64,000 nucleotides of DNA, taken from positions 3,348,001-3,412,000 of the forward strand of contig NZ_CP021874.1 in the NCBI RefSeq assembly GCF_002197645.1, written 5' to 3'. Under the pieces are notes generated by a model. It made no database searches. It was not told the DNA's origin and was given only the letters and a program-made list of their open reading frames with translations. Position 1 is the stretch's first letter, and each line of letters starts with the position of its first letter. Below are positions 1-41,497 of the stretch, in pieces. A program made the position numbers and the translations under genes. Origin of the DNA: Enterococcus wangshanyuanii (lineage in GTDB: Bacteria > Bacillota > Bacilli > Lactobacillales > Enterococcaceae).

Positions 1-639
1 GGCGATGAACAGGGAATCAAAGTAAATAGTGATGGTAAATATCTGATCGATATTCGTGATGTCGAACCTGGAAAAAAATGGTCTACTAAAATTACGATCA
101 TCAATGTGGAAAAAGATATCCCATATCAATTAACCATGACTAGTAGTAAACCGACATTGATCGAAGGAAATTTAGATTTATCAAAAGCTATTCAGATGAG
201 CCTGTTTCTTGATGGAAAAGAAGTCTATCAAGGACCTCTGTCAGGTGTCAGTAAAGCAAGAAATCTACAGGATAAAGCGAATCCCTTGAATTTAGGTATC
301 TATAAGGGCGGAGATACCCATTTATTAGAAGCTAAATTTGAGTTAGATGGTAAAGCCTATACCAATCGAGATTTTTTCAAAAAAAATGTAGTCGAAAATA
401 TCTGGAACTTTAAAGCAGTCAAAACAGAATTACCAGATACAAAAGGACCAGACCCGGACAAGCCTAAAAACATCATCGAGGCAGTCAAAGACCGACTGTC
501 GTTTCCAAAAACAGGTGAACAATGGCGCGAAGCGTTGCTGTTTATGTGTATCGGATTGTTTTTAATTTTGATTGTCCTGTTGATTTTAAAGCATAAAAAG
601 AATGAACAAGGAAAGAAAAATAAAAAATGGATTTCTTAG
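1..639 (+). CDS. Sortase-anchored surface protein, C-terminal part
   Basis: The frame is open from base 1, so the gene starts left of the window. The visible 212 residues end in a cell-wall sorting signal: an FPKTGE sortase motif (a variant of LPXTG), a hydrophobic segment rich in L/I and a Lys-rich tail. The part before it is beta-rich and soluble and I do not recognise a named domain. It sits 29 bases before the first of two TasA-like genes, so it probably belongs to the same surface operon. A GTG at 106 has no ribosome site and is an internal Val. Anchoring to peptidoglycan is inferred from the motif. Confidence 0.85.
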   Translation, partial: GDEQGIKVNSDGKYLIDIRDVEPGKKWSTKITIINVEKDIPYQLTMTSSKPTLIEGNLDLSKAIQMSLFLDGKEVYQGPLSGVSKARNLQDKANPLNLGIYKGGDTHLLEAKFELDGKAYTNRDFFKKNVVENIWNFKAVKTELPDTKGPDPDKPKNIIEAVKDRLSFPKTGEQWREALLFMCIGLFLILIVLLILKHKKNEQGKKNKKWIS

Positions 640-668: not shown

Positions 669-1526
669 GTGAAAAAGAAGTTAGCGAAAAAGAAAAAAAA
701 TACTCGCAGAAAAAAATTTAAAATCCATGCCAAACTAATCATTGCAGTCTGCGCGTTTCTTTTTTCTGGTTTGATGGTTCTAGGAAGTACATATGCTTGG
801 TTTGTTTCAGAAGATGAAGAAAACAACCACTTTGTAGGAACAAGGTTATCAGCTGAAATCGTTGAAGATTTTGAGCCTGATTTTGAATGGCAGTCAGGAA
901 TGACAGTCAAAAAAGTCGTTCGTGTCAAAAACACTGGGGACGTGCCTGCCTTTGTTCGAATCAGTTTATATGAATATCTGCTGATGTTCAAAATAGATGT
1001 AGCAGATCAGACAGGAAATGGGAATTTAGCTCTTTCGCCGAATGCTATACAGCCGATTGCAGAAATAGAGCATCCAAACAACTGGGCAAATGCAGCAGCA
1101 GGCGGCGGGACGTATCTTTATGACGGACATTATTATATTGCTAAAAATGCAGTGATTCCGGCAACTGCGGAAGATCGGTATAAATTTAAAGATGCCGCTC
1201 GTAATGCAACAGATTTGAAATGGTTCAAAGTGAACTTTCCAACGAATATCTACGAAAGTTTGCCGGCAAGCGGGACACAAAATTATTGGTTATATCAAGA
1301 CGGTTATTTTTATTACTCAGAATTATTAGAGCCAAATGATTTAACAACACCGATTGTTGAGAGTGTTTCACTGGATCAAAGTGCGCCAAACAAATTTAAG
1401 GGAGCTCTTTATAAGTTAGAACCAGTAATGGATGCACATGATGCTACGCAAATCTTACTAAGTAATTGGAAGATAACACCATCAAGTCCAGCAGCCAATT
1501 TATATAAAGATCGGCTAAGTGACTAA
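669..1526 (+). CDS. TasA/camelysin-like secreted protein with SipW-type signal
   Basis: 285 residues. A very basic N-terminus (Lys/Arg-rich, about 25 residues) leads into a hydrophobic segment ending GSTYAWF, then the acidic stretch and N.F.VG pattern typical of SipW-dependent signal peptides. A beta-rich TasA/camelysin-type body with RVKNTGDVPAFVRI follows. Family members form extracellular fibres or are inactive M73-like proteins; which applies here is not shown. The start is GTG with AGGAGG about 8 bases upstream. It is 17 bases before a paralogous gene. The dedicated signal peptidase SipW expected for such proteins is not in the window. Confidence 0.8.
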   Translation: MKKKLAKKKKNTRRKKFKIHAKLIIAVCAFLFSGLMVLGSTYAWFVSEDEENNHFVGTRLSAEIVEDFEPDFEWQSGMTVKKVVRVKNTGDVPAFVRISLYEYLLMFKIDVADQTGNGNLALSPNAIQPIAEIEHPNNWANAAAGGGTYLYDGHYYIAKNAVIPATAEDRYKFKDAARNATDLKWFKVNFPTNIYESLPASGTQNYWLYQDGYFYYSELLEPNDLTTPIVESVSLDQSAPNKFKGALYKLEPVMDAHDATQILLSNWKITPSSPAANLYKDRLSD

Positions 1527-1543: not shown

Positions 1544-2203
1544 TTGAAAACAAAAAAATCAAAAAAGAAAATTAAAATAGCAAAATCCCTCTTTTTACTT
1601 ACGAGTGCAGTGATCATTATGGTGATGGTGTCATTGGGATTGCATCGAACGTATGCAGCTTTAACAGATAGTGATCAAAAAGAAAACGATTTTAGAGTAG
1701 GAAATGTTCAAACAGAGATCAAAGAAGAATTTGATCCACCTAACATATTTGAACCAGATAAAGAATATTCAAAAAAAGTACAGATAACAAATACTGGGGA
1801 ACAAGATATCTTTATTCGAGTGTTAGCTTTACCAAGTATCACAAAACAACAGTCGAATGGTTCGACCCTTTTATTGCCAGCTACGACAGAAGGAAGCAAC
1901 CCAGTTTTAACGATCGACTATAATTTGACAGATTGGATCAACGGACAGGATGGCTATTTTTATTATAAAAAGAAACTAGCGAAAAATGAACAGACAGCAG
2001 TTCTTTTTACGAAAGTCAAAATGAACCAAGCGGCAATTACAGAGGAATACGAAAATGTTTCTTTGACCATTGAAATCAAAGCAGAAGGTATCGGAACAAC
2101 GAAATATTCTTATCGAGATGCTTGGTGGAACGCTGAGACACCGACCACCGGTCCGCTTTTAAATGTTGATAATGCACTGAAAGGACAAACAAGCAGTCAA
2201 TAA
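1544..2203 (+). CDS. Second TasA-like SipW-type secreted protein
   Basis: 219 residues, paralogue of the preceding gene. It has a basic start, a hydrophobic segment ending in HRTYAAL, then DSDQKENDFRVG and QITNTGEQDIFIRV, which match the previous protein's layout. A TTG start is chosen because GAGGAGG lies 7 to 8 bases upstream. The order two TasA-like proteins plus a VWA protein suggests a fibre or pilus-like surface structure, but no pilin motif or sortase gene is seen here. Confidence 0.78.
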   Translation: MKTKKSKKKIKIAKSLFLLTSAVIIMVMVSLGLHRTYAALTDSDQKENDFRVGNVQTEIKEEFDPPNIFEPDKEYSKKVQITNTGEQDIFIRVLALPSITKQQSNGSTLLLPATTEGSNPVLTIDYNLTDWINGQDGYFYYKKKLAKNEQTAVLFTKVKMNQAAITEEYENVSLTIEIKAEGIGTTKYSYRDAWWNAETPTTGPLLNVDNALKGQTSSQ

Positions 2204-2234: not shown

Positions 2235-4481
2235 ATGAAAAAGGGAAGAAGAAAGAGAGTACGTTTTTTTCGTTGGATGATGATTGTTGCAAGTTTGATT
2301 GGATTAGTCTATTTTGCACAATCAGCACTTTTATATACGAATGCGCCTATCAAAGCTGCTTTGAAGACTGAACTTCAGCCTGGAGAAGTGAAATTGAGTA
2401 AAACCGCAAAACCGGTAGAAGGTATGGTCAATCAATGGGATATCACCGTTCGAATCGAAGGGCGTAACCAATTTCCGCCACCGCCAACGGATATAGTTCT
2501 AATTATCGATACATCAGGCAGTATGGAAGAAAATGATCGAATGATCAAAGCGAAGAGTGCGGCAGAAAAATTTGTAAACATGGTGCTCCACAAAGATTAT
2601 GTCAATCGAATCGCTTTAGTTACCTATAATTCCACTGTGACGAATTATACATTCAACCAGGCTGGATGGAGTGGTCAATTTGTTGATTACTCACATAAAA
2701 GCCTACTGATCGATAAGATCAAAGAATTAGAACCTGTTGTCAACGGAGGAACCTTTACACAAGCTGGAATTAAATCTGCAACCGAAGTGATGACCAAAGC
2801 GACTGGAGAAAAAAGAAATATCGTACTTATTTCTGATGGTGTACCAACGTACAGCTATCCACCTACTGCACCTTATAACCAATTAAGCGGTATGGAACTT
2901 TTTGACTATCCTAGTGGTGCTGCGGGATACAACTACTATGAAAGTGTCAAAACGATTCCGGAAGCAAACTTTGATTACAGTAAGCCTTACGGAAATGGAG
3001 CTAAATACCGTATTGGTGCGTTCGCACCAGAATATGAGCAAATGCCTAACGGCTCTAAAAATCGTTTAATGGCTAATCATGCACATAGTGCAATTGCTCA
3101 AGCAACAATTACTAAAAAAGAAAAAATGTCGAATGGCGAATTTTTAGTGACCGATTTCTATACGATCGGTGTGGATTTAGATTCTGCTTCTCAAGATGAC
3201 GAAATCACGACAGGAAATCAGACATTAAAAGAAATTGCCTCATCGGAAGATAAATGTTTTGCTGCAACTGCAGATAATTTAGATGATATTTTAAGTGGTA
3301 TCGCGGGTGAAATCGTAGGTGCGATCAAATCAGCACATGTCGTAGATCCGATGGGAACAGGTTTTGTTATGAATGGCAGTGAGTCTGTCACCCAAGGAAA
3401 TTCTGAGGCGAAGGATGTTTTAGGCGTAAAAACGATCAATTGGGATGTTGGAACACTCAAAACACCCGTTTCAAATGATCCAGATGAAGATGTGATGTAT
3501 GCGGAAATGACGTATCGAGTGGATGCGACAAATGATGTATTGAAACCTAATGTGATCGATGCAAATGGATTAGCTGAAACAAATGGTAAAACAACGATTG
3601 TCTATAAAAAATATAATGATATGGTCGTGCCGGACATATTTGAGGTCCCCAAGGTCAAGCCGATTATTGTAAGTCTGCAAAAGAAACTGCTGGATGAAGA
3701 GGGGAAAGAAGTAACAGAGAAGTCTGACTCATTTGACTTTAAATATGGTAATGATCAATACACAGGGAATGATGCCTTTACCCTTTTCCCGAACGAAGTG
3801 AAAAAAATCGTTCATCCATGGAAAGCAGGTCAAGAATACACGGTAGAAGAGCTGTTGAAGTCAACGGAAGAATATGATACCCAAATAGAGATCAATGGAC
3901 AGGTGACCGCAGGAACTAAAGGAATCTTCAAGTTTCTTGCTGTAAATGATCAGTACACCGATCAACAAATCATTGTGACAAATGCAAAAATTGCTCAAAT
4001 AAGAAAAGTGTATCTAAATATCCGACAAGCTGTCATTAAACCAAGTGAAGAACTGGTGATTCCTTCAAAAGGCTATTATACATCTGATATCGAGAACACT
4101 GATCAAACGAGCAATATCATTTCTAAAAGTACGACTAAAGATACGTCAGCCGAGGTATCTGAATCCTTGTTTATGAAATATGAACTTATTTTGAAAAAAG
4201 GAGAAACAAAAGTAGCTATTAGCGATATCATCCCGGAATACTATAAGTTTGCAGGATATATTGTTTCTTCAACGAATCAAAATTTGAACACAACACATAT
4301 CTCAAGCAATACGAGTGAATTAATGAAAACAAATAAGGCAGAACTAGATTATCAAACGAACGAAGAATACTGGCTGACGATGTTTATTACACCAAAATTA
4401 GGAACAACAATAGACGGTGAACAAGAAACGTCACCTAGACCCTATAGCTGGGCATATAAAGTAAATCAATTCGGCAAATAA
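2235..4481 (+). CDS. Secreted von Willebrand factor A domain protein
   Basis: 748 residues. One N-terminal membrane/signal segment (residues 12-32) is followed by a VWA domain with a complete MIDAS start, D92-T-S-G-S96, in DIVLIIDTSGSM. The remainder (about residues 400-640) is beta-rich and carries a SpaA/Cna-B-like section near FDFKYGNDQYTG. There is no C-terminal sorting motif or membrane anchor, so retention must be by the N-terminal segment or by partner proteins. VWA domains of this class bind host or matrix ligands through a metal ion. The gene ends 22 bases from a convergent regulator. Confidence 0.8.
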   Translation: MKKGRRKRVRFFRWMMIVASLIGLVYFAQSALLYTNAPIKAALKTELQPGEVKLSKTAKPVEGMVNQWDITVRIEGRNQFPPPPTDIVLIIDTSGSMEENDRMIKAKSAAEKFVNMVLHKDYVNRIALVTYNSTVTNYTFNQAGWSGQFVDYSHKSLLIDKIKELEPVVNGGTFTQAGIKSATEVMTKATGEKRNIVLISDGVPTYSYPPTAPYNQLSGMELFDYPSGAAGYNYYESVKTIPEANFDYSKPYGNGAKYRIGAFAPEYEQMPNGSKNRLMANHAHSAIAQATITKKEKMSNGEFLVTDFYTIGVDLDSASQDDEITTGNQTLKEIASSEDKCFAATADNLDDILSGIAGEIVGAIKSAHVVDPMGTGFVMNGSESVTQGNSEAKDVLGVKTINWDVGTLKTPVSNDPDEDVMYAEMTYRVDATNDVLKPNVIDANGLAETNGKTTIVYKKYNDMVVPDIFEVPKVKPIIVSLQKKLLDEEGKEVTEKSDSFDFKYGNDQYTGNDAFTLFPNEVKKIVHPWKAGQEYTVEELLKSTEEYDTQIEINGQVTAGTKGIFKFLAVNDQYTDQQIIVTNAKIAQIRKVYLNIRQAVIKPSEELVIPSKGYYTSDIENTDQTSNIISKSTTKDTSAEVSESLFMKYELILKKGETKVAISDIIPEYYKFAGYIVSSTNQNLNTTHISSNTSELMKTNKAELDYQTNEEYWLTMFITPKLGTTIDGEQETSPRPYSWAYKVNQFGK

Positions 4482-4503
4482 TGATATAAAAAACAAATAA
4501 AAA

Positions 4504-5376
4504 TCATTTAATTTGGTTGGATCGCAAAATATTTTGATAATCCTCGACGATTTTACAATAATCCAAGGTTTCTAGAATATCTAAGTACTTTGTGATTTCG
4601 GGTGTCAATTTTTTACATGTATTAGCTGAATGAGCAATCGCATAATTTAAGCGGGCAATAAGCATTTCAAAAAGTCGATAATCCGAGTGAGCGTTAGTGA
4701 TAGCAAGTTTAGAAAAATTCATAGCATGTGGGTAATCTTTATAATTTAAACATAACGAAGAGAGATTTAAATAAATTCTCAATTTTGTATCCTGCAAGAT
4801 CTCCATTTGATTCAAAGGATCGATTTTATCTGTTACCAATGTACCTAAAGCGATTGCCTCTGAAGGTGAAAAACAATAGAGAGAATTATTCAAAAGTTTT
4901 AACTCATAGAGATACCATTTATCTACGCCGATCAAATAGTTTTTAATCGGGCTCATGAGTTGCTGTAATGAAGGATGCTGCGGTGTTTCTTCGTTTGTAA
5001 AATTTATTTGAAGCATTGCTTTTGTGATCAAAAAAAGGTGGAAATACTTCTCATTTTTAGTCGTTTGATAGCGTTGATCAGCAAGCTTCACCAATGTTTC
5101 AAGATAAGCTTTATCTTTTTTAAAAACAGCATGACTTAATTTGTAGTATAACTGATTTTCAGCGGGAAAATACTCCGGATCAAGTAAGTTAAGAAACTCC
5201 TCAACGGATAGAAACAATTTCTCCAAGATTAATAAGAATTTATCAAATGAGGGCATGCTGACATTTGATTCAATCAAGTAGTAAGTTTGCCTAGTCATAA
5301 TTCCTGAATAAACATTTTTTTGGCTTAGACCTTTTTCAATTCTGATTTTTTTTAATAATGATCCATAATTATTCAA
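4504..5376 (-). CDS. Rgg/MutR-family helix-turn-helix regulator
   Basis: 290 residues. The N-terminal XRE-type helix-turn-helix (about 5-60; LLKKIRIEKGLSQKNVYSGI, then YYLIESNVSMPSFDKFLLILEKL) has the spacing of Rgg/GadR/MutR proteins. The remaining roughly 220 residues are all-helical, as expected for the repeat domain that binds short peptides. In streptococci such regulators sense exported hydrophobic peptides and control neighbouring genes, including lantibiotic genes (MutR). Here it is divergent from a micro-ORF and the SpaA-repeat/lanthipeptide block, so control of that block is the natural inference. Its AGGAGA ribosome site lies just upstream of the start. Confidence 0.8.
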   Translation of the reverse strand: MNNYGSLLKKIRIEKGLSQKNVYSGIMTRQTYYLIESNVSMPSFDKFLLILEKLFLSVEEFLNLLDPEYFPAENQLYYKLSHAVFKKDKAYLETLVKLADQRYQTTKNEKYFHLFLITKAMLQINFTNEETPQHPSLQQLMSPIKNYLIGVDKWYLYELKLLNNSLYCFSPSEAIALGTLVTDKIDPLNQMEILQDTKLRIYLNLSSLCLNYKDYPHAMNFSKLAITNAHSDYRLFEMLIARLNYAIAHSANTCKKLTPEITKYLDILETLDYCKIVEDYQNILRSNQIK

Positions 5377-5611
5377 AAAAAAATCTCCTTTCTGGGTATA
5401 AAATACTTTACCGACTGAAAAAATTTACTTCCTGTGTGTTATTATAACAAAAAAATAAATAACTAATTAAATAAAGTTAATATTATTAGATTAACTTTTT
5501 TAGATAAAGGAAGGAGCTGAGTAAATATGGTTTTGTTACTCGTATGGTTTATAACATTTTAATTGTTTGTATGGTTTAAATTAAATAATAGTTAGGGGCG
5601 TTTATTAGAGG
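5377..5611. promoter_or_regulatory. Divergent control region of the Rgg gene and lanthipeptide block
   Basis: This 235-base A+T-rich gap separates the regulator from the SpaA-repeat gene. A direct repeat GTATGGTTTA occurs at 5542-5551 and 5569-5578, 27 bases apart, and could be an operator or a promoter part. No close match to a sigma-A promoter is seen for the rightward genes, which fits activator-dependent transcription. It also holds the micro-ORF listed separately. Function is inferred from position. Confidence 0.45.
5527..5562 (+). CDS. Candidate short hydrophobic signalling peptide (11 aa)
   Basis: ATG-initiated frame encoding MVLLLVWFITF, preceded by AAGGAG with a 10-base gap. It lies divergent from an Rgg-family gene, the arrangement of rgg/shp pairs in streptococci. 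Against this, it lacks the Lys-rich start and acidic residue of typical SHP precursors and is shorter than they are. It could instead be a leader peptide for the next gene. No homology claim is made. Confidence 0.35.
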   Translation: MVLLLVWFITF

Positions 5612-8062
5612 ATGAAACAAAAATTTAGTTATGTACTTATTCCAGTTATCATGATTTTCATCGCGTTGGGGCTGTTTAATGGACCAACAGCAGAAGCGAC
5701 TAGTACGAATGCAACATGGTCAACGGCATCAAATTCATCTACAGTTGGTCTTCCGAACTTAGCGGATGTCCAAAATAATGTATTACAGGCGAGTCAGCCG
5801 ACAGCCAGATTTTTTGGAGTCACTTGTTATGCTGGCGTTCAAGTGATCAAATATGATTCAAAAACGAATGCAAGATTAGCCGGAGCAGAATTTACGATTT
5901 ATGACTCTTGGGGGCGTGCAGTTCAGGTCATCCAGTCAAATGCAAACGGGATTGCTCAAACAACTACCTTGCCGTTAGGTAACTATTCGATACGAGAAAC
6001 AAAAGCACCGAGCGGCTATCAGCTTGAATCTAGTCGTATGTATTTTTCTCTAATGAGAAGTGGTCAACTACTTTGTTTGACGAAATGTAATGTACCATTG
6101 CCAGAGCAAAAAGGCGGGCTGCAAGTAGTTAAAACGAATGAATCAAATCAAGTGTTGGCTGGTGCTGTTTTCGATGTGTATAATTCCAGCAATCAGCTTG
6201 TAGGAAGAATTACCACTGGAGCCAATGGAGTTGCTGCGTTAAGCAATTTACCTTTTGGCACCTATAAACTAGTTGAAGTTCAAGCTCCGAACGGCTATGA
6301 ATTAGACTCAACGCCAAAATATGTGACGATTTCTTCAACTAATAAAACTGTAACGATATATGTCACTAATAAAAAAGCCACAGGAAAAATCTTGATCGTT
6401 AAACAAAGTGTGGAAGGTAGATTATTATCAGGTGCTACTTTCCAAGTATACAATGCAAACAATCAGTTAGTTGGGACGATCACTACAAATGATAGTGGGT
6501 TTGCTACGTTGAACGATCTACCTTATGGCACTTATAAATTGGTTGAAACAAAAGCGCCGGACGGCTATGAACTAGACCCAACACCGCATTATGTCACTAT
6601 TTCAAAAGATACACCAAATGGAGTTGCAAGTATTGCTATTGTGAACAAGAAAAAAGTCACAACGGGCGATCTTGAAGTCATCAAAAAAGATGAAGAAGGA
6701 AAACTACTTGCAGGAGCAGAGTTCAATGTATTCAATGCAAACAACCAGCTGGTTGGGACTGTTACAACAGATGCAAATGGTGTAGCAACATTAAGTGATC
6801 TACCTTTTGGCACCTATAAATTAGTTGAAACAAAAGCACCGGCAGGCTATGAGTTGGATGCGACACCACATTATGTAACGGTATCTGAAAATGATCCAAA
6901 TGGAAAAATCAGCATTACTGTGGTGAATAAAAAAGAACAAACCACAGGTAACCTTGAAGTCATCAAAAAAGATGAAGAAGGAACGCTCTTAGCAGGAGCA
7001 GAATTCGAAGTATACGACAGCAATGATCAGTTAGTTGGCAAAGTGACAACAGATGCTAATGGCGTAGCGACTTTAACAGATTTACCATATGGTACGTATA
7101 AATTGATTGAAACAAAAGCGCCGGAAGGCTACGAAATGGATGCAACACCAAAATATGTCACACTTTCCAAAACAGATCCAAACGGTAAAGCAACCATTGA
7201 AGTCTTGAATAAAAAAGAAGTCGTACCTGAAACTGGATCTTTGAAAATCATCAAATATGTGAAAGATTCGGACCCAATCGAATATTTAGCAGATGCAGTC
7301 TTTGAAGTTTATGATACAGATACACAATTATTAGGCACCTATACAACAGATCAAAATGGAGAAATCCTCCTAAATGATTTAGCGCCTGGAAAATATTATG
7401 TCATTGAAGTGAAAGCACCTCCTGGTTTTGAAGAAGATACAACCTTCTATGAAATCACGGTAGAAGCTGGAAAAATTGCTGAAATCAGACATGCTAATGT
7501 TAAAAAGGAAAACCTAGGTGGTCTAAAAATCACGAAATACGCATTAGATGAAGATGGTTATGAAACTGATAATGTTTTACCTAATGCAGAATTTTCAGTA
7601 ACAGACTCAAATGGGAATGTTCATACTGGAACGACAGATGCCAATGGAGAACTCTTCTTTTCTAATTTGCCGGTAGGCGAAGTTGTCATTGCAGAAACGA
7701 AAGCACCGGATGGCTATGAACTAGATGCTCCGCAACAAACCAATACTATTGAAGTTGGTACGATTGCAGAAAATATTTTCTATAATAAACCGAAGCAAAT
7801 TCAAGGACGTGCATTAGTATATGTCTCAAGTACAGATGCTAAGCAAGTGTTAAGTGGTTTGCAATATCAAATTACTTGTACGAAAGGGAATGCCTTAGAG
7901 ACAACGGCTATTACCAATAGCTTTGGTCAAATCAGTATCTACTTGCCGCCTGGTGAGTATGAAATCGCACCATTGATCAAAGGCAGAACGACTTCAACCG
8001 TGAAGCCGACAAGCTTCAAGATCGAACCGAATAAATTTACGATCATTAGATTAACCATTTAA
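5612..8062 (+). CDS. Secreted protein of eight SpaA/Cna-B-type repeats, no anchor
   Basis: 816 residues. A signal peptide (about 1-30, ending near AEA) is followed by a short Ser/Thr-rich part and then eight prealbumin-like repeats of 80-95 residues. Each starts with the pattern G.L.V.K.D..G..LAGAEF.V.D and contains GTYKLVETKAP.GYELD and a closing V.NKK. Conserved Lys, Glu and Asn at these places are those that form internal isopeptide bonds in Cna-B folds. Repeats 3-5 are the most alike. The final repeat is divergent and no LPXTG or membrane segment follows, so it is released or held by another protein. The ATG has only AGAGG directly against it, a poor ribosome site. It is followed by the lanthipeptide precursor gene. 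Confidence 0.85.
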   Translation: MKQKFSYVLIPVIMIFIALGLFNGPTAEATSTNATWSTASNSSTVGLPNLADVQNNVLQASQPTARFFGVTCYAGVQVIKYDSKTNARLAGAEFTIYDSWGRAVQVIQSNANGIAQTTTLPLGNYSIRETKAPSGYQLESSRMYFSLMRSGQLLCLTKCNVPLPEQKGGLQVVKTNESNQVLAGAVFDVYNSSNQLVGRITTGANGVAALSNLPFGTYKLVEVQAPNGYELDSTPKYVTISSTNKTVTIYVTNKKATGKILIVKQSVEGRLLSGATFQVYNANNQLVGTITTNDSGFATLNDLPYGTYKLVETKAPDGYELDPTPHYVTISKDTPNGVASIAIVNKKKVTTGDLEVIKKDEEGKLLAGAEFNVFNANNQLVGTVTTDANGVATLSDLPFGTYKLVETKAPAGYELDATPHYVTVSENDPNGKISITVVNKKEQTTGNLEVIKKDEEGTLLAGAEFEVYDSNDQLVGKVTTDANGVATLTDLPYGTYKLIETKAPEGYEMDATPKYVTLSKTDPNGKATIEVLNKKEVVPETGSLKIIKYVKDSDPIEYLADAVFEVYDTDTQLLGTYTTDQNGEILLNDLAPGKYYVIEVKAPPGFEEDTTFYEITVEAGKIAEIRHANVKKENLGGLKITKYALDEDGYETDNVLPNAEFSVTDSNGNVHTGTTDANGELFFSNLPVGEVVIAETKAPDGYELDAPQQTNTIEVGTIAENIFYNKPKQIQGRALVYVSSTDAKQVLSGLQYQITCTKGNALETTAITNSFGQISIYLPPGEYEIAPLIKGRTTSTVKPTSFKIEPNKFTIIRLTI

Positions 8063-8091
8063 TCTGCGGATGTAAATACTAAATTTTGTTT

Positions 8092-8132
8092 TAAGCTGGA
8101 CGATTGGTGTTCAAAGCAAACGTCCAGTTTAA
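8092..8132 (+). terminator. Hairpin between SpaA-repeat gene and lanA
   Basis: AAGCTGGACG pairs with CGTCCAGTTT across an 18-base loop, followed by a weak A/T-rich tail. It may end or thin out the upstream message before the precursor gene. Confidence 0.4.
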
Positions 8133-8196
8133 ATAGATAAATAATAAATGTGCACACTTTATTATTAGGAAAAAAACATAATGGGAGGAAAAAACT

Positions 8197-8385
8197 ATGA
8201 ACAAAACTGCTGAAAAAAAAGTTGGAAAATCTTTTGAGGAATTAACACCAGAAGAAATGAATAAAGTACAAGGGAGCTTCTTCGGATGGAGCTGGTCTTC
8301 ATCTTCATCTTCTTCATCATCAAGTAGCTGTTACTCTACAAGATGTAGCTATAGCTGCTGCTCTTCAAGATGTTGCGGTTGGTAA
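8197..8385 (+). CDS. lanA: Class II lanthipeptide precursor with poly-serine core
   Basis: 62 residues. The N-terminal 26 or 27 form a class II leader: FEELTPEEMNKVQGS, with the acidic helix and a Gly-Ser variant of the double-glycine cleavage site. The core starts FFGWSW, continues with eleven consecutive Ser (34-44), then CYSTRCSYSCCSSRCCGW, giving six Cys (45, 50, 54, 55, 59, 60) and two CC pairs. Ser/Thr greatly exceed Cys, so many would stay as dehydroalanine or serine after ring formation. A full GGAGG precedes the ATG. The Ser run is coded by mixed TCT/TCA/AGT/AGC codons, and the first part is a TCTTCA repeat. The lanM and lanT genes follow directly, which makes the assignment firm even though I know no close relative of the core. 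Confidence 0.9.
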   Translation: MNKTAEKKVGKSFEELTPEEMNKVQGSFFGWSWSSSSSSSSSSSCYSTRCSYSCCSSRCCGW

Positions 8386-8400
8386 TCTAAAATAATTCGA

Positions 8401-8449
8401 TGCTAGATAAGTTGCCTTTAAAAAGGCAATTTATCTAGCACTTATTTTT
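8401..8449 (+). terminator. Strong hairpin between lanA and lanM
   Basis: TGCTAGATAAGTTGCCTTT pairs almost perfectly with AAAGGCAATTTATCTAGCA and is followed by a T-rich run. Partial termination here would give excess precursor message over synthetase message, as in other lanthipeptide operons. The last part is inference. Confidence 0.8.
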
Positions 8450-8507
8450 AATATGGAACTAATTCAGGAGAATTTACATAAATAAATTGATTTAAAGGAG
8501 ACTAGCT

Positions 8508-11500
8508 ATGAGTCTTAATAATTTAGCTAAAGCAACCTCGATTCGTCAACGATACGATCTGTTAAAAAATTACTATGTTGGGAAAACAACACGACCGGAT
8601 ACTTCATCACTTGAAAATTATAAAAAGTGGCGCAGTCGACCGACCACCGTGACAGACGAAAGATTTGAAGAAATCCTTCAGTCTGCAAGATTAACAAAAG
8701 AAGAATTTGATTTGGCTATCAAAGAGTTGACAGAAGAAGAAAAAGACTATATTTTTTCAGAAATTCAAACGGATGACTGGCTCCAAATGACACAAGAGAT
8801 TTTTGAACAAGAAGACCATTTAGTCGAGGATGTGTTTGATGAGAGCAAAGCCAATTTTACCTATGCCTTACGTTTGCATATCGATTATTTTGAACTGAAG
8901 CTGAAAGAAATCTTGAAAGAGTTTTCAGAAGTAGAGGTACAAGCGAGCGCAATGATGGATTATGTCGGTGAAGTCATCAATCGCTTCATGGATATTGGGC
9001 TTAGAACCTTTGTTTATGATTTACACGTAACAAAAGAAAAGCTGGAAATAGAGCCGGAACTTGATGAGAAAAAGGCGTTTCAAAAGTACCTCATCTCTCG
9101 TTTTGATTCAAAAGAAAAAGTAGCTGACTTTTTTGCCCAGTATCCTGTATTGGCACGACTATATGCAGAAACGATCAGCTTTCAGCTTGTCAATTTCAAC
9201 GAGCTGATGAAAGCACTTGATGAAAGTCAGGACGAGTTGAATGAGATTTTCAAACTAAGACTTCCTCTTAGTTTAACTGGATTAAAAATGGGCGCTGGAG
9301 ACTCTCATGATCGTGGAAAATCAGTGGCAATCTTAACGTTTCATGAGGAAGCAGAACTTGTTTATAAACCAAAAAATTTGGCTATTAGTGAACGCTTTGA
9401 TCGTTTTGTACAAGAGATACAAAAATTAGATGCATCCTTTGATTTTTATTTAACAACTAAAATAGTAAAAGAAAACTATTCGTTTGAAGAACGTTTGCTC
9501 TATCTGGAATGCGCAACAGAAGCAGACGTACATCACTATTATCGTCAATTTGGTCAAACGATTGCTTTAGTTTATTTACTTAACGGCAATGACTTTCATT
9601 TGGAAAACGTCTTGGCTTTTGAAAAATATCCTGTGCTGATCGATTTGGAAACGATCATCCAAAATCATTTTCCAATGCCGGACAGCCAAAATGCGATCGT
9701 TAAAGTAATGCAGGAGAATGGTGAGTCCGTAGTGATGAGCGGGTTAGTGCCGATTTATCTCTTTGAAGAACGTGCGGAAGAAGATGTCGAAGGTGCGTCA
9801 AAAGGAATTCAATTAAGTGCTTTAAGTGGCGGCGAGCAAAAATTACCATATAAGGTTTTGAAGCTTGTCAATTTTGATTCTGTGAATATGCAATTTTTAT
9901 ATCAAGAACATATCACTGATGCTGCTGAAAATATTCCAATGTATAACGGAGAAAAGGTTGATTTTGTTCCTTATATCGACACCATTATAAAAGGGTTTAA
10001 GGAATTTTCAGCTTTTGCATTGAATAACCAAGAGACATTAGCGGAGATCGTAGAAAATATTTTTTCAGATTGTCTTGTTCGTAATGTGATCAAAACAACG
10101 CAAAGCTATGGAGATCTTCTTGATTATTCTACACATCCGACCTGCATGGTCGACTATATCGAAAGAGAGAAATTATTCGAAAATCTTTGGATGCATGGGT
10201 ATTCCAATGCTCAGCCTGTGCCGTTTGAAGTAAGAGATATGCTCCAACATGACGTACCGATATTCTTTAACCCTACTAGCAGCCGCGATCTTGTAGCCAG
10301 TCAGGGAGAAGTGATCAAGGATATGTATCCTGATAAAGCAATCGATTTAGAAGTAACGAAAGTCAAAGGTTACTCCAAGCAAGAAGAAACCGAGCAACTG
10401 GATTATTTAAAAACCTCATTTGGTCTGTATCACTCAACGGATCTTCAGGAAAAACGAGTTCCACTAAAAGACATCGCTGGACAATCGATTTTTGAAAATG
10501 GTGCCCATGCAATTGGTGAAGCGATCCTTGAAGCGGCCTTTTTAGGCGAAGATTCGATTGCTTGGAAAGACATTGAAGAATCTTCACCTGACAATTATGT
10601 GGTCAATGTGATGAATGAGAACTTTTATGATGGCATTACAGGAATGTATCTTTATTTTAGTGAACTCTATCATGTGCTCAAAGAGCCACAATTTAAAGCA
10701 GCTTATCAATTAGCCGAAAAATTAGTATTGAAACTAGAAGAAGATTATGTAGACAGTGTTTCTGCCTTCTATGGTTCTTTTGCGGCAGTCTATCCTTTAC
10801 TTTATACCTACAGGATCACAAAGGAAGAACACTTGCTGCAGGCAGCTGAATCGATCGCCGAAAAATACATGACGAACTATGATCCAGAAACGATTGAAAG
10901 CTATGACTGGAATGGCGGGACAGGCTCGATCATCAAGGTCTTTGTGCTCTTGTATCAAGAAACAGGTCAACCACGCTACTATGAATTTGCGAAACGCCTA
11001 TTATTCGATCTGGATTTAAACAAGGTAACGCAAGGTGGATTTGCCCACGGTTATTCAGGGATTATCTATGCGGCCAATAGTTTGCTGACAATTACTGATG
11101 ATCCAGAAATTGAATTGATCATAAAAAAATGTTTAGTCAAAGAACGGACAACCTTTGATCCCGTTCAAAAAGGCTGGCTGGATCTCAGACCCGTTCCGCC
11201 GATGGTCAATGATTTGTGGTGTTATGGTTCTACTGGAATTGGTTTGGCTTATTTGGATCTTTTGAATAGTGGTTTTACTGATTCAAAATTACAGTCAGAG
11301 GTTCAACTTGCAGCAGATCGTCTGCTTGCACAGGAAAAAAGAGATGATTGTCTTTGTCATGGAAACTTAGGTGATTTAGCCTTTTTAAATGCTTTCGGAG
11401 AAACAACTTTTGCGACTGCTGAACAGCAAGCAAAAATCAAAGAAAAACAAGAGAGAATAAAAACAAAAATCATAAACCAAGCCTATACATTTGAAGGCTT

Positions 11501-11621
11501 ACCGACCATTCCTAAATACGGTTTATTTACTGGTTTATCTGGAATCGGGCATCAAATTTTACGAATCCATTCCCCAGAAAAAACAGCAGATATATTAACA
11601 TTGAGCTTACCGAAAGAATAA
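8508..11621 (+). CDS. lanM: Class II lanthipeptide synthetase LanM
   Basis: 1037 residues, normal for LanM. The N-terminal half is the kinase-like dehydratase that phosphorylates and eliminates Ser/Thr: KMGAGDSHDRGKS, ELVYKPKNLAIS, and GNDFHLENVL followed by PVLIDLETI are its conserved blocks. The C-terminal third is a LanC-type cyclase with all three zinc ligands, C905 (WCYGSTG) and C950-H951 (CHG), plus several G..G repeats of the alpha-toroid. Both activities therefore look intact, and it should dehydrate the serine-rich precursor encoded just upstream and close (methyl)lanthionine rings. AAAGGAG precedes the ATG. LanT follows 17 bases on. Confidence 0.95.
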   Translation: MSLNNLAKATSIRQRYDLLKNYYVGKTTRPDTSSLENYKKWRSRPTTVTDERFEEILQSARLTKEEFDLAIKELTEEEKDYIFSEIQTDDWLQMTQEIFEQEDHLVEDVFDESKANFTYALRLHIDYFELKLKEILKEFSEVEVQASAMMDYVGEVINRFMDIGLRTFVYDLHVTKEKLEIEPELDEKKAFQKYLISRFDSKEKVADFFAQYPVLARLYAETISFQLVNFNELMKALDESQDELNEIFKLRLPLSLTGLKMGAGDSHDRGKSVAILTFHEEAELVYKPKNLAISERFDRFVQEIQKLDASFDFYLTTKIVKENYSFEERLLYLECATEADVHHYYRQFGQTIALVYLLNGNDFHLENVLAFEKYPVLIDLETIIQNHFPMPDSQNAIVKVMQENGESVVMSGLVPIYLFEERAEEDVEGASKGIQLSALSGGEQKLPYKVLKLVNFDSVNMQFLYQEHITDAAENIPMYNGEKVDFVPYIDTIIKGFKEFSAFALNNQETLAEIVENIFSDCLVRNVIKTTQSYGDLLDYSTHPTCMVDYIEREKLFENLWMHGYSNAQPVPFEVRDMLQHDVPIFFNPTSSRDLVASQGEVIKDMYPDKAIDLEVTKVKGYSKQEETEQLDYLKTSFGLYHSTDLQEKRVPLKDIAGQSIFENGAHAIGEAILEAAFLGEDSIAWKDIEESSPDNYVVNVMNENFYDGITGMYLYFSELYHVLKEPQFKAAYQLAEKLVLKLEEDYVDSVSAFYGSFAAVYPLLYTYRITKEEHLLQAAESIAEKYMTNYDPETIESYDWNGGTGSIIKVFVLLYQETGQPRYYEFAKRLLFDLDLNKVTQGGFAHGYSGIIYAANSLLTITDDPEIELIIKKCLVKERTTFDPVQKGWLDLRPVPPMVNDLWCYGSTGIGLAYLDLLNSGFTDSKLQSEVQLAADRLLAQEKRDDCLCHGNLGDLAFLNAFGETTFATAEQQAKIKEKQERIKTKIINQAYTFEGLPTIPKYGLFTGLSGIGHQILRIHSPEKTADILTLSLPKE

Positions 11622-11638
11622 GAAAGGGGGCTGTTGTT

Positions 11639-13780
11639 TTGGTAAAAAAAATTCCGTTTATTGAGCAAAGTGAACATAGTGAATGTGGCCTTGCCTGTAC
11701 CGCTATGGTATTAAACTATTATGATGATCATGTGACCTTAAGTCATCTGCGTGATGTCTATGGTGTGCCCAAAGGAGGGAATACCTTAACCAATCTTTAC
11801 CAAATTTTACTGGATAGAGGCATCGAAACCAAAGCGATCCGAGTGCTGGAATTAGATGTTTTAGAAGAACAAACGGCACCAACGATTTGTTTTTGGGAAG
11901 AGCGACATTACGTTGTTTTAGAAAAGCTAACAGCGAAAGAGGCCATCATCCTTGATCCATCTACAGGGAGAAAAAAAATCAGACGAGAAGAATTTATTGC
12001 TGGTTTTTCAAATATTGCGTTGATTTTAGTCGATATCGATGTCACTGTGTCACAAAGAAAAAAAGCGAAAAATGCGACCTGGGTCATATTGAAAGATATT
12101 TTAAAGAGCAAGAAGGCGCGAGTGGTAGTGTTTATTTTGTTGACACTTTTGATACAAGGAGTGACGATCATCGTTCCGCGAATCACTCAAATGATCATCG
12201 ATGGCGCAGATTCTGTAGTCAACAATGGGGTTCAGATCGGCTTAACTATTTTGGCATTATTTGTCGCCTATTATTTTTTACAGGTGGCCAGAGGGTTAGT
12301 ATTGATTTTATTGGAAAACTTATTTGATCTAACATTGATGAAAGAATTTATGCAAAAAATCATTCATCTACCCTTGCGTTTTTTCATTAATCGTTCTACG
12401 GGCGATTTGATTTTTAGAGCGAATTTAAGTGTGATCATCCAGCAAATCATGAGCCAGCGAATGTTGACGATTTTTGTTGATTTCCTTTTCGTGTTTATTT
12501 ACCTGATTTTAATGATCAGCATGTCTGTTAAATTGACATTGATTGCAATTTTTGGCGCGTTGCTTATGGGCTTGATTTCTGTGGTCAATTCAAGAAGAGT
12601 GCAAAGCATCACTAATAAAGAATTGATCGCTCAATCAAAAGTACAACGTATTTTAGTTGAATTGTTTGAAGGAATGGAGACTGTGAAATCTTCAGGTTCT
12701 GAAAACGAGTTTTATACAAAGTGGCGGAATGAATTCAAAAATCAAATTGGTTTACGGGCTGAGAAGAGTCGCTTTTCAACCTGGGTCAGAACGATTCAAA
12801 CCTCGATCCAGTTTATTCTGCCGATCACATTGATTTATATTGGATTGATGCAGGTCGTAGCTGGTCAGGTGACTTTAGGGGAACTGATCAGTTTCAATGC
12901 ATTGGCAGGAGCATTCATCACACCGATCGTTACAGTGTTTGATTCTTATACAGAGTTACTTTTATTGCGGTCATATTTTGGTAAACTGAATGAGATTTTA
13001 GAAGCTAAAGAGAGTCCTCGCTTGACACAGGCAGATGAAAAAATCACTCGCATCGATGAAATTGCCGCTGAGGATATCTCATTCAAATACAGCCATTTCG
13101 AAGAAGAGATTTTGACGTCTGTTACCTTCAAGATTGCAGCTGGAGAAAAAGTTGCGATCGTCGGAAAAAGTGGATCTGGGAAAAGTACGTTATTGAAGTT
13201 GCTCGCAGGATTATATGATGTCAGCGCTGGCGAAATTCGTTTTAATGATACTGACATTAGAAGAATTGACGAAACGTCCATAAAAGGCTGCGTGAGTATC
13301 GTGAATCAAAAGCCAACGATTTTTAATGCATCCCTGTATGAAAATATCGTGCTGAATCAAAATGATGTAGCACAAGAGCGAGTGGAACAGGCAATTTTTG
13401 ATTCCAAAGTGGACGAAATCATAATGAACTTACCGTTAGGTTTGGAAACACAAATTTCAGAAGGCGGTATGAATCTGTCTGGCGGTCAGATGCAGCGGAT
13501 TTCGATTGCTCGTGCGTTAGTCAAAGAGACAAGTCTTTTATTGATGGATGAGCCAACTAGTTCATTAGATAATATTTCAGAAAATTTCATTATGAATAGA
13601 CTAAAAACTTATGATTTTACTTGTATCATTGTTGCTCATCGTTTAAATACGATCAAGCATTTCGATCGTATTTTGGTGATGGATCAAGGCAGAATCGTTG
13701 AAGAAGGAACACATGACGAACTATTACAGTTAAAAGGACATTATTATTCCATTTATGTTGATCCACAAGGAACTAGCTAA
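11639..13780 (+). CDS. lanT: LanT-type peptidase-containing ABC exporter
   Basis: 713 residues. An N-terminal C39 peptidase has the Q10...EC16G motif, H90 and D106 (LDPSTG) as the catalytic set; it removes leaders after double-glycine-type sites. About six transmembrane segments (roughly 155-420) follow. The ATPase has Walker A GKSGSGKST, signature LSGGQMQR and Walker B LLLMDEPTSSLD. The TTG start is chosen because AAAGGGGG lies about 10 bases upstream and the C39 domain begins immediately. It should cleave and export the modified peptide. No LanFEG immunity transporter and no LanP protease are present around it. Confidence 0.93.
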   Translation: MVKKIPFIEQSEHSECGLACTAMVLNYYDDHVTLSHLRDVYGVPKGGNTLTNLYQILLDRGIETKAIRVLELDVLEEQTAPTICFWEERHYVVLEKLTAKEAIILDPSTGRKKIRREEFIAGFSNIALILVDIDVTVSQRKKAKNATWVILKDILKSKKARVVVFILLTLLIQGVTIIVPRITQMIIDGADSVVNNGVQIGLTILALFVAYYFLQVARGLVLILLENLFDLTLMKEFMQKIIHLPLRFFINRSTGDLIFRANLSVIIQQIMSQRMLTIFVDFLFVFIYLILMISMSVKLTLIAIFGALLMGLISVVNSRRVQSITNKELIAQSKVQRILVELFEGMETVKSSGSENEFYTKWRNEFKNQIGLRAEKSRFSTWVRTIQTSIQFILPITLIYIGLMQVVAGQVTLGELISFNALAGAFITPIVTVFDSYTELLLLRSYFGKLNEILEAKESPRLTQADEKITRIDEIAAEDISFKYSHFEEEILTSVTFKIAAGEKVAIVGKSGSGKSTLLKLLAGLYDVSAGEIRFNDTDIRRIDETSIKGCVSIVNQKPTIFNASLYENIVLNQNDVAQERVEQAIFDSKVDEIIMNLPLGLETQISEGGMNLSGGQMQRISIARALVKETSLLLMDEPTSSLDNISENFIMNRLKTYDFTCIIVAHRLNTIKHFDRILVMDQGRIVEEGTHDELLQLKGHYYSIYVDPQGTS

Positions 13781-13842
13781 AAAATAATAGGTAATTAAAA
13801 AAATGGGAGAAAACTCTTGGTTATCAAAGGGAGAGAAAAAAT

Positions 13843-14463
13843 ATGGCAGTTATTGGGTATATGCGTGTTAGTACACATTTTCAAAAATTCGATTCACAAC
13901 AACAGGCACTTGATGATTATGGTGTAGATATGATCTTTAAAGAGTATGAAAGTGGGCGTAAAAGTTTTCGGAATGAGCTAAACAAGGCATTGGATATTCT
14001 TGAACCGGGAGATACATTTGTGATTTTCAAATTAGATCGATTAGCAAGGGGAACAAAGCAGCTGCTTGTTTTGCTGGAGCGGTTCAATGAACTGAATATT
14101 AATTTTGTCAGTATCGAAAATAATATCGATACCTCGACACCAATGGGCCGATTCTTCTTTACGATCATGGGAGCTTTTGCTGAGATGGAAGCAGAATTGA
14201 TTAGAGAACGTGTTCTAGCGGGGCTGAATGCGGCAAAGCAAAAAGGCGTTGTTTTAGGTCGCCCGCCTCTAGTTGACCAAGTCAATGAGGCACTTGAGTT
14301 ATACCATAATACAAAGCTTCCAGCTGAACAAATCTCAAAACGCTGTGGGATCTCGATTTCTACCTTGTATCATCATTTAAGAAAAGAAGGCGTTTATCGA
14401 ACAAAAACGACGAATGACCTAATCGATATGGGCGAATTTATGGTCAGAAGTACTAAAAATTAG
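13843..14463 (+). CDS. Small serine recombinase (resolvase/invertase family)
   Basis: 206 residues. The catalytic domain has Y6-MRVS10, with S10 the nucleophile, LDRLARGTKQ, and MGRFFFTIMGAFAEMEAELIRER leading into the long E helix. A C-terminal helix-turn-helix (AEQISKRCGISISTLYHHL) binds DNA. The size fits Tn3-type resolvases or Gin/Hin invertases rather than large integrases. A GGGAGA site precedes the ATG. I saw no paired inverted repeats that would mark an invertible segment, so it may be a relic of the mobile element that carried the lanthipeptide locus. Confidence 0.85.
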   Translation: MAVIGYMRVSTHFQKFDSQQQALDDYGVDMIFKEYESGRKSFRNELNKALDILEPGDTFVIFKLDRLARGTKQLLVLLERFNELNINFVSIENNIDTSTPMGRFFFTIMGAFAEMEAELIRERVLAGLNAAKQKGVVLGRPPLVDQVNEALELYHNTKLPAEQISKRCGISISTLYHHLRKEGVYRTKTTNDLIDMGEFMVRSTKN

Positions 14464-14478
14464 CGCTAGCTAAATATA

Positions 14479-14516
14479 AAAAAGTTGAGATCAACCTAGG
14501 TTGATCTCAACTTTTT
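14479..14516. terminator. Bidirectional terminator, perfect 38-bp palindrome
   Basis: A perfect palindrome centred on CCTAGG with A-run and T-run ends lies between the convergent recombinase and chitinase genes. It should end transcription in both directions. Confidence 0.9.
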
Positions 14517-14528
14517 ATTTATAAACGA

Positions 14529-15578
14529 TTATTGTAAAATTTGCGCATATCTCGTTGCAAATTCATTGTTGTAGGATACACCATTGACATTTGAACCAAC
14601 ATCCCAATTTGCTGACCAAGTCATCAAACCTTTGATTGGGTTGCCATCTTTTTTCAATTGATCCAATGCTTTGTAGACAGCCGTTGGATCGATAACATAG
14701 CCACTTCCAGCAGCATCAACATTTGCAGGTAATCCTAAGACAAGTTTGTCATTTGGAATCTTCAAGAAGGTTCTTGTACCATGGATCATTGAATCTGACA
14801 TGTAATAAAGGAACTCATATTTGAGTGCGTCATTACTTTGAGGGATCCACTTCATGATTTCATCAACCCAAACACCATCGCCGCCTTGATTATACAATTG
14901 TGGAGCAATGTAGTCATAGTAGCCATCTAAAGAAGTGATATATTTTTCATAAGCTGCCCCTGGTTTTAAATAAGGGAATTCCGGCGCCATTGTAATGATG
15001 AAATTTTTCCCTTGGGCTTTATAGTGATTTTTGACTGTTTTCAATGCTGCTGGAATCACTGTTTGGTTATCACCAGCTGTGATTGCAGATTGTTCTAAAT
15101 CAATATCTAGCCCGTCGAAGCCATATGTTTCTACTTGGCGGATAATTTCATTTGCAAAAGCTTGTTCATCGCCGGCTTGTAATTGGATATGGGCGTCAGC
15201 ACCACCTAAGGCAAGCAGCACTGCTCGTCCTTGACTGTTTAGAGTTGCGACATCCTGGCGGAATGCTGCATCGGTTTTATTGTAAGGGGCAAATGTCGGG
15301 ATTCGATTGACACCGTCACTCTTCATAAATGAAACAGGAACTACGTTATATGCTTTATTGACATCTGCTAAAGAGATATTTGCAGAGGTGCCTTGTTTAT
15401 AGCCATCTCTTCCTTTAGAAGCCCAGTTGTGCCAATAGCCGACAAGTACTTTTTTATTTGCTACACTGACCATGTCGCTTGCTGCATCTGCTGCTTCGAC
15501 AGGTTTACTGGTAAATAAGCTGCCGGCAAAGATCCCTGAGATCAATAAAGCGGCTGGAATAAGTTGTTTGATTTTCAT
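14529..15578 (-). CDS. Secreted GH18 chitinase
   Basis: 349 residues. A signal peptide (about 1-29, ending VEA) precedes a single glycoside hydrolase 18 barrel. The catalytic motif is D155-G-L-D-I-D-L-E162, with E162 the proton donor. VLVGYWHNW and the closing LMTWSANWDVGS strands are typical. No chitin-binding module is attached. The family cleaves chitin or GlcNAc-containing glycans. It is the second gene after the monooxygenase, 31 bases downstream, the same pairing as the E. faecalis chitinase and AA10 enzyme. Confidence 0.93.
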   Translation of the reverse strand: MKIKQLIPAALLISGIFAGSLFTSKPVEAADAASDMVSVANKKVLVGYWHNWASKGRDGYKQGTSANISLADVNKAYNVVPVSFMKSDGVNRIPTFAPYNKTDAAFRQDVATLNSQGRAVLLALGGADAHIQLQAGDEQAFANEIIRQVETYGFDGLDIDLEQSAITAGDNQTVIPAALKTVKNHYKAQGKNFIITMAPEFPYLKPGAAYEKYITSLDGYYDYIAPQLYNQGGDGVWVDEIMKWIPQSNDALKYEFLYYMSDSMIHGTRTFLKIPNDKLVLGLPANVDAAGSGYVIDPTAVYKALDQLKKDGNPIKGLMTWSANWDVGSNVNGVSYNNEFATRYAQILQ

Positions 15579-15609
15579 CTAAGTTCTCCTTTTTGATTCC
15601 TGATTTGAC

Positions 15610-16194
15610 TTATTTTACATTCACATCAATAGCTTGGTAGAACGCATTTGTTGTATCGTAGACGTTCCAAACTGCGTAAATAACATGGTAACCTTTACGA
15701 TCTGCTGGGACAGTCACCGTGTGTTTGACACTCGCTTCAGGAATCGTTCCATTATCATTAACGGTACCGATCAAATCAAAATTTTTGATGTCTAAAGGTT
15801 GATTGGAGTTCCAACCTTGTTTTGTCATATAATAGTTCCAAGTGGAAGTTCTGTGACGTGCAGTCAATGTCCAGGTAAGGCTAAGCGGGCCTGTTGTAAT
15901 GTCTGATTTTACCCAGCGGTCAGGAGTCTGTTCATCCAAAGGATCGAATCCGCTCACACCAGCACTTGCTAACTTTCCAGTAATAAAGGTATTTTTGGTT
16001 GCTTCAATACTTTGAGGCTCCCATTCAGCACGACCAACATTTTTGTTGACTTTTCCACCAGCAGCACTACCGAAGTAAGCACGGCTTCCAGGTGAAGAAA
16101 CATATCCATGGGCATCAGCTACTGCGGTTGTAACGAACAATCCTCCAGCCAATAAACTAAGTGACAGTACAGCTTTTAACAATGTCTTTTTCAC
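15610..16194 (-). CDS. AA10 lytic polysaccharide monooxygenase (chitin-active)
   Basis: 194 residues. Signal peptidase cleavage after ADA would expose H29 as the N-terminal residue, HGYVSSPGSR. With H114 (TARHRTSTW) it forms the copper histidine brace. The rest is the single AA10 (formerly CBM33) domain without extra modules, as in the E. faecalis enzyme. Known members oxidatively cut crystalline chitin and help the GH18 chitinase encoded next. The start has AGGAGG upstream. Confidence 0.93.
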   Translation of the reverse strand: MKKTLLKAVLSLSLLAGGLFVTTAVADAHGYVSSPGSRAYFGSAAGGKVNKNVGRAEWEPQSIEATKNTFITGKLASAGVSGFDPLDEQTPDRWVKSDITTGPLSLTWTLTARHRTSTWNYYMTKQGWNSNQPLDIKNFDLIGTVNDNGTIPEASVKHTVTVPADRKGYHVIYAVWNVYDTTNAFYQAIDVNVK

Positions 16195-41446: not shown

Positions 41447-41497
41447 CACTCCTTTGCGTATTTTATAGAGAGAAGCGTATTAAGGAGTGATTTTTTG
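41447..41497 (+). promoter_or_regulatory. Hairpin overlapping the radC ribosome site
   Basis: CACTCCTT (41447-41454) pairs with AAGGAGTG (41482-41489), then ATTTTTTG. The right arm is itself the radC Shine-Dalgarno sequence and the T-run contains the TTG start. It can act as a terminator for the HAD gene and could limit radC translation. Confidence 0.55.

Follow-up and report, generated by a model that had tools for sequence, protein, structure and literature searches.

We analyzed a 64,000-nucleotide stretch of the genome of Enterococcus wangshanyuanii (positions 3,348,001 to 3,412,000 of contig NZ_CP021874.1, forward strand), which we call the window. It contains a lanthipeptide locus, lanA-lanM-lanT, whose precursor peptide has a run of eleven serines (Table 1; positions are those of the window). 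A preliminary description of this DNA had placed the three genes correctly, and their reading frames are uninterrupted from start to stop. We compared the locus with its counterparts in 16 related genomes, which gives 17 loci in all. The sequences support the assignment to class II lanthipeptides, with the enzymes intact.

The precursor and its enzymes

The translated lanA (MNKTAEKKVGKSFEELTPEEMNKVQGS / FFGWSWSSSSSSSSSSSCYSTRCSYSCCSSRCCGW) has a leader of 27 amino acids that ends in VQGS, and 35 amino acids remain after it. The predicted core is FFGWSW-S11-CYSTRCSYSCCSSRCCGW, which confirms the layout that had been described: FFGWSW, eleven serines, and an 18-residue C-terminal part with six cysteines (two CC pairs and two singles). 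The serines had also been called a tail; the run actually lies in the N-terminal half of the core. The computed mass of the core is 3821.40 Da if unmodified, 3731.35 Da after the loss of five waters, and 3533.24 Da after the loss of 16.

The leader had been assigned to class II, and it does exceed the cut-off of the Pfam family Mersacidin (PF16934; 31.7 vs. 27.6 bits), with a match to profile positions 1-19 of 34 only. LanA falls below the cut-offs of the lichenicidin A2 family (TIGR03893; 23.2 vs. 32.95 bits) and the plantaricin C family (NF000539; 19.5 vs. 29 bits). Like the class II peptides with a mersacidin/cytolysin leader, LanA has the leader motif F-E-E-L-T-x-E-E-M and a double-glycine-type end, and it is encoded beside a LanM and a LanT with a C39 domain. 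In an alignment of 20 precursors, the VQGS end of the leader, with GS at the presumed -2/-1 positions, is present in every row. But the family match covers the leader only, and no family matched the serine run and the S-x-x-C core. The operon also differs from those of PF16934 peptides in having no recognized immunity gene.

LanM is a fused dehydratase and LanC-like cyclase: it matches the NCBIfam LanM family (TIGR03897) at 679 bits (the cut-off is 304), as well as PF13575 and PF05147. As the preliminary description had reported, its zinc ligands and dehydratase blocks are kept. C905, C950, H951, D265, H267, D362, H364, N367, and D379, which we take to be the catalytic residues, are invariant across the window and the 16 relatives. 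Among solved structures, LanM matches only CylM and LicM2, and CylM is the better match (PDB:5dzt; 378 bits over the full length). C905, C950, and H951 align with a Cys and a Cys-His of CylM, and the dehydratase motifs align too. CylM is shorter, at 993 amino acids. Also, CylM makes a two-peptide toxin, while here there is a single precursor with a different core: we found one precursor in the operon, and no gap above 243 bases, at all 17 loci. In LanT, the triad of the C39 domain had likewise been reported as intact, and C16, H90, and D106 are invariant across the 17 loci.

From lanA to the downstream recombinase gene, the gaps are at most 243 bases at 17 of 17 loci, so the operon has no room for a further normal-sized gene, be it for immunity, a protease, or a reductase (very short open reading frames (ORFs) in the gaps were not sought). 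We recognized no LanFEG, LanI, or other immunity gene in the operon or in the surrounding island, which is where we searched.

A blastn search of plasmids with lanM gave no match. The same genome has a second LanM gene (L071:9256-12147, minus strand, at about 1.83 Mb of C1; 495 bits). Among the ORFs of at least 100 amino acids in the 20 kb around it there is no LanT, and there is no obvious precursor in the flanking stretches of about 1.2 and 1.6 kb.

The serine run and the cysteine tail

The preliminary description had suggested comparing related genomes. The precursor is encoded in 17 of the 22 Enterococcus genomes that we searched, including the genome of the window (E <= 0.01). Across the family, it is found in 17 of 105 genomes, all of them Enterococcus, and in 0 of 83 genomes from other genera (E <= 1e-6). 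Named carriers are E. plantarum, E. quebecensis, E. crotali, E. caccae, E. larvae, E. rivorum, E. termitis, E. ureasiticus, E. sp. DIV0212c, and E. sp. BWR-S5. These account for 10 of 11 loci; the eleventh (L039), which is excluded from all counts over the 17 loci, is an additional locus in E. plantarum with a different precursor. The second precursor of E. plantarum (L018 / L039) has a related leader and a different, Asn-rich core. In the 20 kb around it, only lanA, among ten proteins of the window, has a blastp match (E <= 1e-5). Another genome (G001; L019 / L020) has four tandem lantibiotic-like precursors with related leaders and GDVQ-ETTP cores.

A profile search of 5.8 billion proteins with a 20-row alignment returned the same six clusters as a single-sequence query (E up to 1). 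We found no member outside of Enterococcus, within the limit that the word-based first step sets to this search.

The family does have a name. NCBI annotates the homologues from E. termitis and E. ureasiticus as "serine-rich class II lanthipeptide," and P0003 and P0004, which are close homologues of LanA, lie in the same place in the same island. (A distant relative, P0006, is labeled "mersacidin family lantibiotic.") However, this is a database name only: a literature search found no paper with this phrase or three variants of it. Among the matches listed for serine-rich, polyserine, and consecutive-serine or consecutive-dehydroalanine lanthipeptides, none of the titles and opening lines of abstracts concerns this peptide. 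The available parts of two mining papers (PMC7268733, PMC12715929) mention no serine-rich lanthipeptide family. The latter names a lanthipeptide region with a Wadjet system in E. plantarum TRW2, which may be the lan locus described here. The preliminary claim that no such layout had been described thus stands in that we found no contrary paper, but a name exists at NCBI and close relatives occur in most of the genus genomes.

We then examined the serine run. Eight consecutive TCN codons occur at only three sites in the 4.16-Mb genome, and a control pattern has 0 sites (AGY serine codons fall outside of the pattern). The other two TCN sites are antisense to Asp/Glu-rich ORFs. Given this rarity, the run is not due to chance. 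The run is present in 16 of the 17 genomes, with a longest stretch of 7 serines in one genome, 9 in three, 10 in one, 11 in eight, 12 in two, and 14 in one. The 16 runs (the window's included) are encoded by 15 distinct synonymous codon strings, which argues that the run is held at the level of the protein sequence. In several alignment rows, Arg or Asn intrudes at the end of the run.

If the run were fully dehydrated, it would give up to ten or eleven consecutive dehydroalanines, and this electrophilic or rigid rod might be the functional center of the product. The intact dehydratase residues, the persistence of the run despite its changing codons, and the absence from the operon of a reductase gene that would convert dehydroalanine to D-alanine are consistent with this idea. 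However, the run varies from 7 to 14 residues and is interrupted at its end by Arg or Asn. One genome (G005, locus L017) lacks it, as does P0006, and both keep the S-x-x-C tail. LanM enzymes also often skip serines in hydrophilic surroundings. We consider a fully dehydrated run to be unlikely. This is a claim about chemistry, and it is compatible with either a surface or an antibiotic function. Of the earlier view, our comparisons support the class II locus and its intact enzymes but weaken the case for the run as the central chemistry. As a precedent we weighed phosphorylated serines (PMC13219514); serine runs do not come up in the available part of that paper.

Across genomes, the cysteine tail varies less than the run does. 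Y46, S47, C50, S51, Y52, C54, S57, R58, and C59 are invariant in all 20 rows. The five conserved cysteines (45, 50, 54, 59, and 60) have Ser or Thr at position -3 wherever they are present (98 of 98 cells), and even the row without a serine run (L017) retains the Ser at -3 of C45. C55 is the only cysteine without Ser or Thr at -3; it is present in 13 rows and is replaced by Tyr or Phe in the other 7. The spacing to all five conserved cysteines suggests tandem thioether rings between residues i-3 and i, with the run as a spacer that is free to vary in length. The predicted rings are S42-C45, S47-C50, S51-C54, and either S/T56-C59 or S57-C60.

The surrounding island and candidate control elements

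The bounds first given for the locus (8197..13780) are too narrow, as the three genes form the end of an island of about 18 kb. The preliminary description had the lan genes right but missed that they belong to a matrix island, and it mentioned neither the SpaA partner nor the pairing of rgg with the short ORF. In the genome of the window, the island spans about 17.8 kb, with a gene for a small serine recombinase at each end.

Table 1. Features of the island, in window coordinates except for the last row (aa, amino acids).
Feature	Position	Strand	Remarks
C-terminal part of 254-aa protein	1..639	+	LPKTG motif, by eye; begins about 125 bases left of the window
BsaA family SipW-dependent matrix protein	669..1526	+	78.5 vs. 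60 bits
BsaA family SipW-dependent matrix protein	1544..2203	+	60.0 bits, equal to the cut-off (60)
VWA protein with GBS104-like tip-pilin Ig domain	2235..4481	+	
Rgg-family regulator	4504..5376	-	divergent from the short ORF
Short ORF, MVLLLVWFITF	5527..5562	+	11 codons; purine-rich ribosome-binding site
SpaA-repeat protein	5612..8062	+	816 aa; signal peptide by eye
Hairpin between spaA and lanA	8089..8134	+	
Imperfect palindrome AATAATAAATGTGCACACTTTATTATT	8140..8166	.	precedes the lanA ribosome-binding site; may be an operator (by eye)
lanA, precursor	8197..8385	+	62 aa; leader 8197-8277, core 8278-8382; 11-Ser run 8296-8328 (residues 34-44); six-Cys C-terminal part 8329-8382
Hairpin and T-run between lanA and lanM	8402..8449	+	possible partial terminator or stabilizer
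lanM, class II lanthionine synthetase	8508..11621	+	1037 aa; zinc ligands C905, C950, H951
lanT, C39 peptidase-ABC exporter	11639..13780	+	713 aa
Small serine recombinase	13843..14463	+	right island edge
Small serine recombinase	L072:4799-5368	-	left island edge

The gene order is [rgg] - spaA - lanA - lanM - lanT - recombinase in the window and its 16 relatives, except that rgg is absent from three of them (L035-L037). The spaA gene lies immediately 5' of lanA at all 17 loci. No LP-x-T-[GAS] motif was found in the SpaA-repeat protein. We rejected the idea that this protein has a novel N-terminal domain: by eye, the region reads as a SpaA-like repeat after a short linker.

The genes for the LPXTG protein, the two BsaA proteins, and the VWA protein are found in all 16 relatives. 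The VWA gene (E <= 1e-60) and lanA (E <= 0.01) are present in the same 17 of 22 genomes and are both missing from the same five. (One genome, G019, has a second, weaker match to the VWA protein elsewhere.) The 254-amino-acid LPKTG protein resembles EF0750 but scores under the cut-off (30 vs. 47 bits). The genome of the window encodes three BsaA-family proteins, which score 99.8, 78.5, and 60.0 bits. The island resembles the SipW-BsaA matrix operon of Clostridium perfringens in combining BsaA-family proteins with a signal-peptidase-like gene, but it also has LPXTG, VWA, SpaA-repeat, and lanthipeptide genes, and we saw no two-component system in the island (compared with the available part of PMC7395162).

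The signal-peptidase-like gene lies left of the window. We named it sipW-like by eye; a search with its first piece matched no family at the cut-off. Here it is split into two ORFs (L072:5952-6365 and a 77-amino-acid ORF after it). In 5 of the 6 relatives checked it is a single ORF of 247-278 amino acids (in one of these, L080, the ORF stops where the examined stretch does; in L081, the sixth relative, the examined stretch breaks off inside the gene). The split could mean that the locus is relic DNA whose product is no longer made in this strain. We consider this very improbable, as lanA, lanM, lanT, rgg, spaA, and the short ORF are conserved and uninterrupted. Also, the ratio of nonsynonymous to synonymous differences (pN/pS) in lanA is low: 0.032/0.564 for the leader and 0.112/0.512 for the tail (means over 136 pairs).

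The Rgg regulator has a helix-turn-helix domain and an Rgg C-terminal domain, and its gene is present at 14 of 17 loci. At all 14, an 11-codon ORF of the form M-x(5)-WFIT[YF], with a purine-rich ribosome-binding site, is divergent from rgg. This ORF was not found at any of the 3 loci without rgg in the same search ahead of spaA. (We used one regular expression over the rgg-spaA gap, or over the 1500 bases before spaA.) At most loci there are in-frame starts further upstream, which would give 14-20 residues instead of 11. One of the three loci without rgg, L035, has an unrelated ORF of 236 amino acids instead, so the control of the operon may have been swapped.

This pair resembles the leaderless communication peptides (LCPs) of Rgg/RopB quorum sensing, so MVLLLVWFITF is a candidate LCP. 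In the parts of the literature available to us, LCPs are encoded by short, leaderless, hydrophobic ORFs that are divergent from an Rgg/RopB gene and usually have 8-10 amino acids (PMC10518010, PMC13361665). All 14 loci with rgg have such a hydrophobic ORF, with a ribosome-binding site, in this arrangement. The differences are the length of 11 amino acids, the WFIT[YF] end that the 14 loci share, and the neighboring genes, spaA-lanAMT. An LCP of E. malodoratus controls a type VII secretion locus, according to the part of PMC10518010 available. The word termitis does not occur in the main text of that paper (the supplement was outside of the search).

At most loci, one hairpin is predicted in the spaA-lanA gap and another in the lanA-lanM gap, although the sequences differ (covariation was not counted; the segments were badly cut at L028 for the first hairpin and at L024, L036, and L037 for the second). 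They would fit a single transcript whose genes are expressed unevenly. A search of positions 4400-15000 against Rfam found nothing at the gathering score.

As for the island's boundaries, we found the left recombinase in 6 of 6 further genomes checked, out of the 16. Four of the five genomes that lack lanA carry a close match to the LPMO gene on the right. All four are without the block: their left flank (peptidase C1 and small multidrug transporters) joins the right flank directly (chitinase-LPMO in three and LPMO in G021). The fifth, G017, has no LPMO match. In G013, the same block lies between different genes on both sides, which suggests that the block was relocated in one piece or that its surroundings were rearranged. 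We rejected DNA inversion by the recombinases: the genes found keep their order in all 16 relatives, with no sign of inversion, and in 15 of them the chitinase or LPMO gene has not changed sides (L032 lacks both). LanM distances correlate with LPMO distances (r = 0.935, n = 16), and chitinase and LPMO distances correlate at r = 0.598. From these comparisons, the island appears to be mostly inherited.

The chitinase (GH18) and LPMO-like pair at 14529-16194 is the usual right neighbor, and it is also found in genomes without the island. Further along the window, a RadC-like ORF (41495-42055) is directly followed by a large recombinase gene. Positions 42072-64000 contain phage-like genes, including terminase- and portal-like ORFs (by eye), and look like an integrated prophage.

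A possible role for the peptide

We lean towards a quorum-regulated class II lanthipeptide that is tied to the surface-matrix island and acts at the surface or in the matrix of the producer. We infer the rings, the spacer role, the regulation, and the surface function from the comparisons above. The short peptide would activate Rgg at high density, and spaA-lanA-lanM-lanT would be turned up. LanM would dehydrate Ser and Thr of the tail and close the S-x-x-C thioethers, and LanT would cut after Gly-Ser and export the product. The product would begin with the aromatic head FFGWSW, continue with a spacer of serines (dehydrated fully, partly, or not at all), and end in a rigid knob of several rings.

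Another possibility, to which we give less credence, is that this is an ordinary class II lantibiotic that sits in, or is deployed from, the surface-matrix island. In that case the aromatic head would act on membranes, the ring domain would bind the target, and the serine run would link the two flexibly. The leader is of the mersacidin/cytolysin type, known mainly from antibiotics. Of the two solved structures related to LanM, CylM matches better, and NCBI's label for P0006 includes the word lantibiotic. Also, according to the available part of PMC13361665, streptococci have Rgg regulators that control RiPP (ribosomally synthesized and post-translationally modified peptide) genes, lantibiotic-related ones among them. 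On the other hand, no LanFEG, LanI, or other gene is recognized between lanA and the recombinase at any of the 17 loci. The co-occurrence with the matrix genes, the wide spread across species, and the little-changing tail also do not fit easily with an ordinary lantibiotic. Because of the co-occurring matrix and pilin-like genes, the lack of a recognized immunity gene, and the slow change in the tail, we think that a role at the surface or in the matrix is more likely than a plain antibiotic.

Several observations, besides the leader type, weigh against our preferred reading. First, the 17 genomes share one linked block, so their co-occurrence comes close to a single evolutionary event. Second, immunity genes could lie elsewhere in the genome. 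Third, the N-terminal part of the SpaA partner has 178 related proteins (E <= 0.001). With relatives so widespread, this type of partner is not special to the lanthipeptide. Fourth, when the tail of the window's precursor was shuffled, five S-x-x-C were reached in 906 of 20,000 shuffles, so this pattern is weak evidence by itself. The tail is also less conserved than the leader (pN of 0.112 vs. 0.032). Finally, LanM distances track chitinase distances weakly (r = 0.434, n = 13; 28 of 2,000 permutations were as high), as do those of LanT (r = 0.365, 104 of 2,000) and the recombinase (r = 0.343, 98 of 2,000), so the island may also have been transferred between species.

A more specific version of the surface role is that the lanthipeptide is a dedicated, quorum-made part of the matrix, in which a run of dehydroalanines tethers the knob to thiols of the SpaA-repeat or BsaA proteins. 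We think this is improbable. Two observations count against the tether: the cysteines of the SpaA-repeat protein are not strictly kept (for example, the CxxxC is gone in L023 and L028), and one genome lacks the run. We rejected a thiol link through a conserved SpaA cysteine for the same loss.

The enzymes and the leader are of a known kind. What is new is the length of the serine run, the tandem S-x-x-C motifs of the tail, and the neighboring genes. The natural cores range from 7 to 14 serines in a row, one core having no run, and form a test set for whether LanM dehydrates such runs; the locus also offers a candidate leaderless quorum peptide with a clear neighboring target. Lantibiotics usually have a patchy distribution, unlike this family. 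If the product is made, then a lanthipeptide has been retained across many species of the genus within a surface-matrix island, which would bear on the roles of lanthipeptides besides killing.

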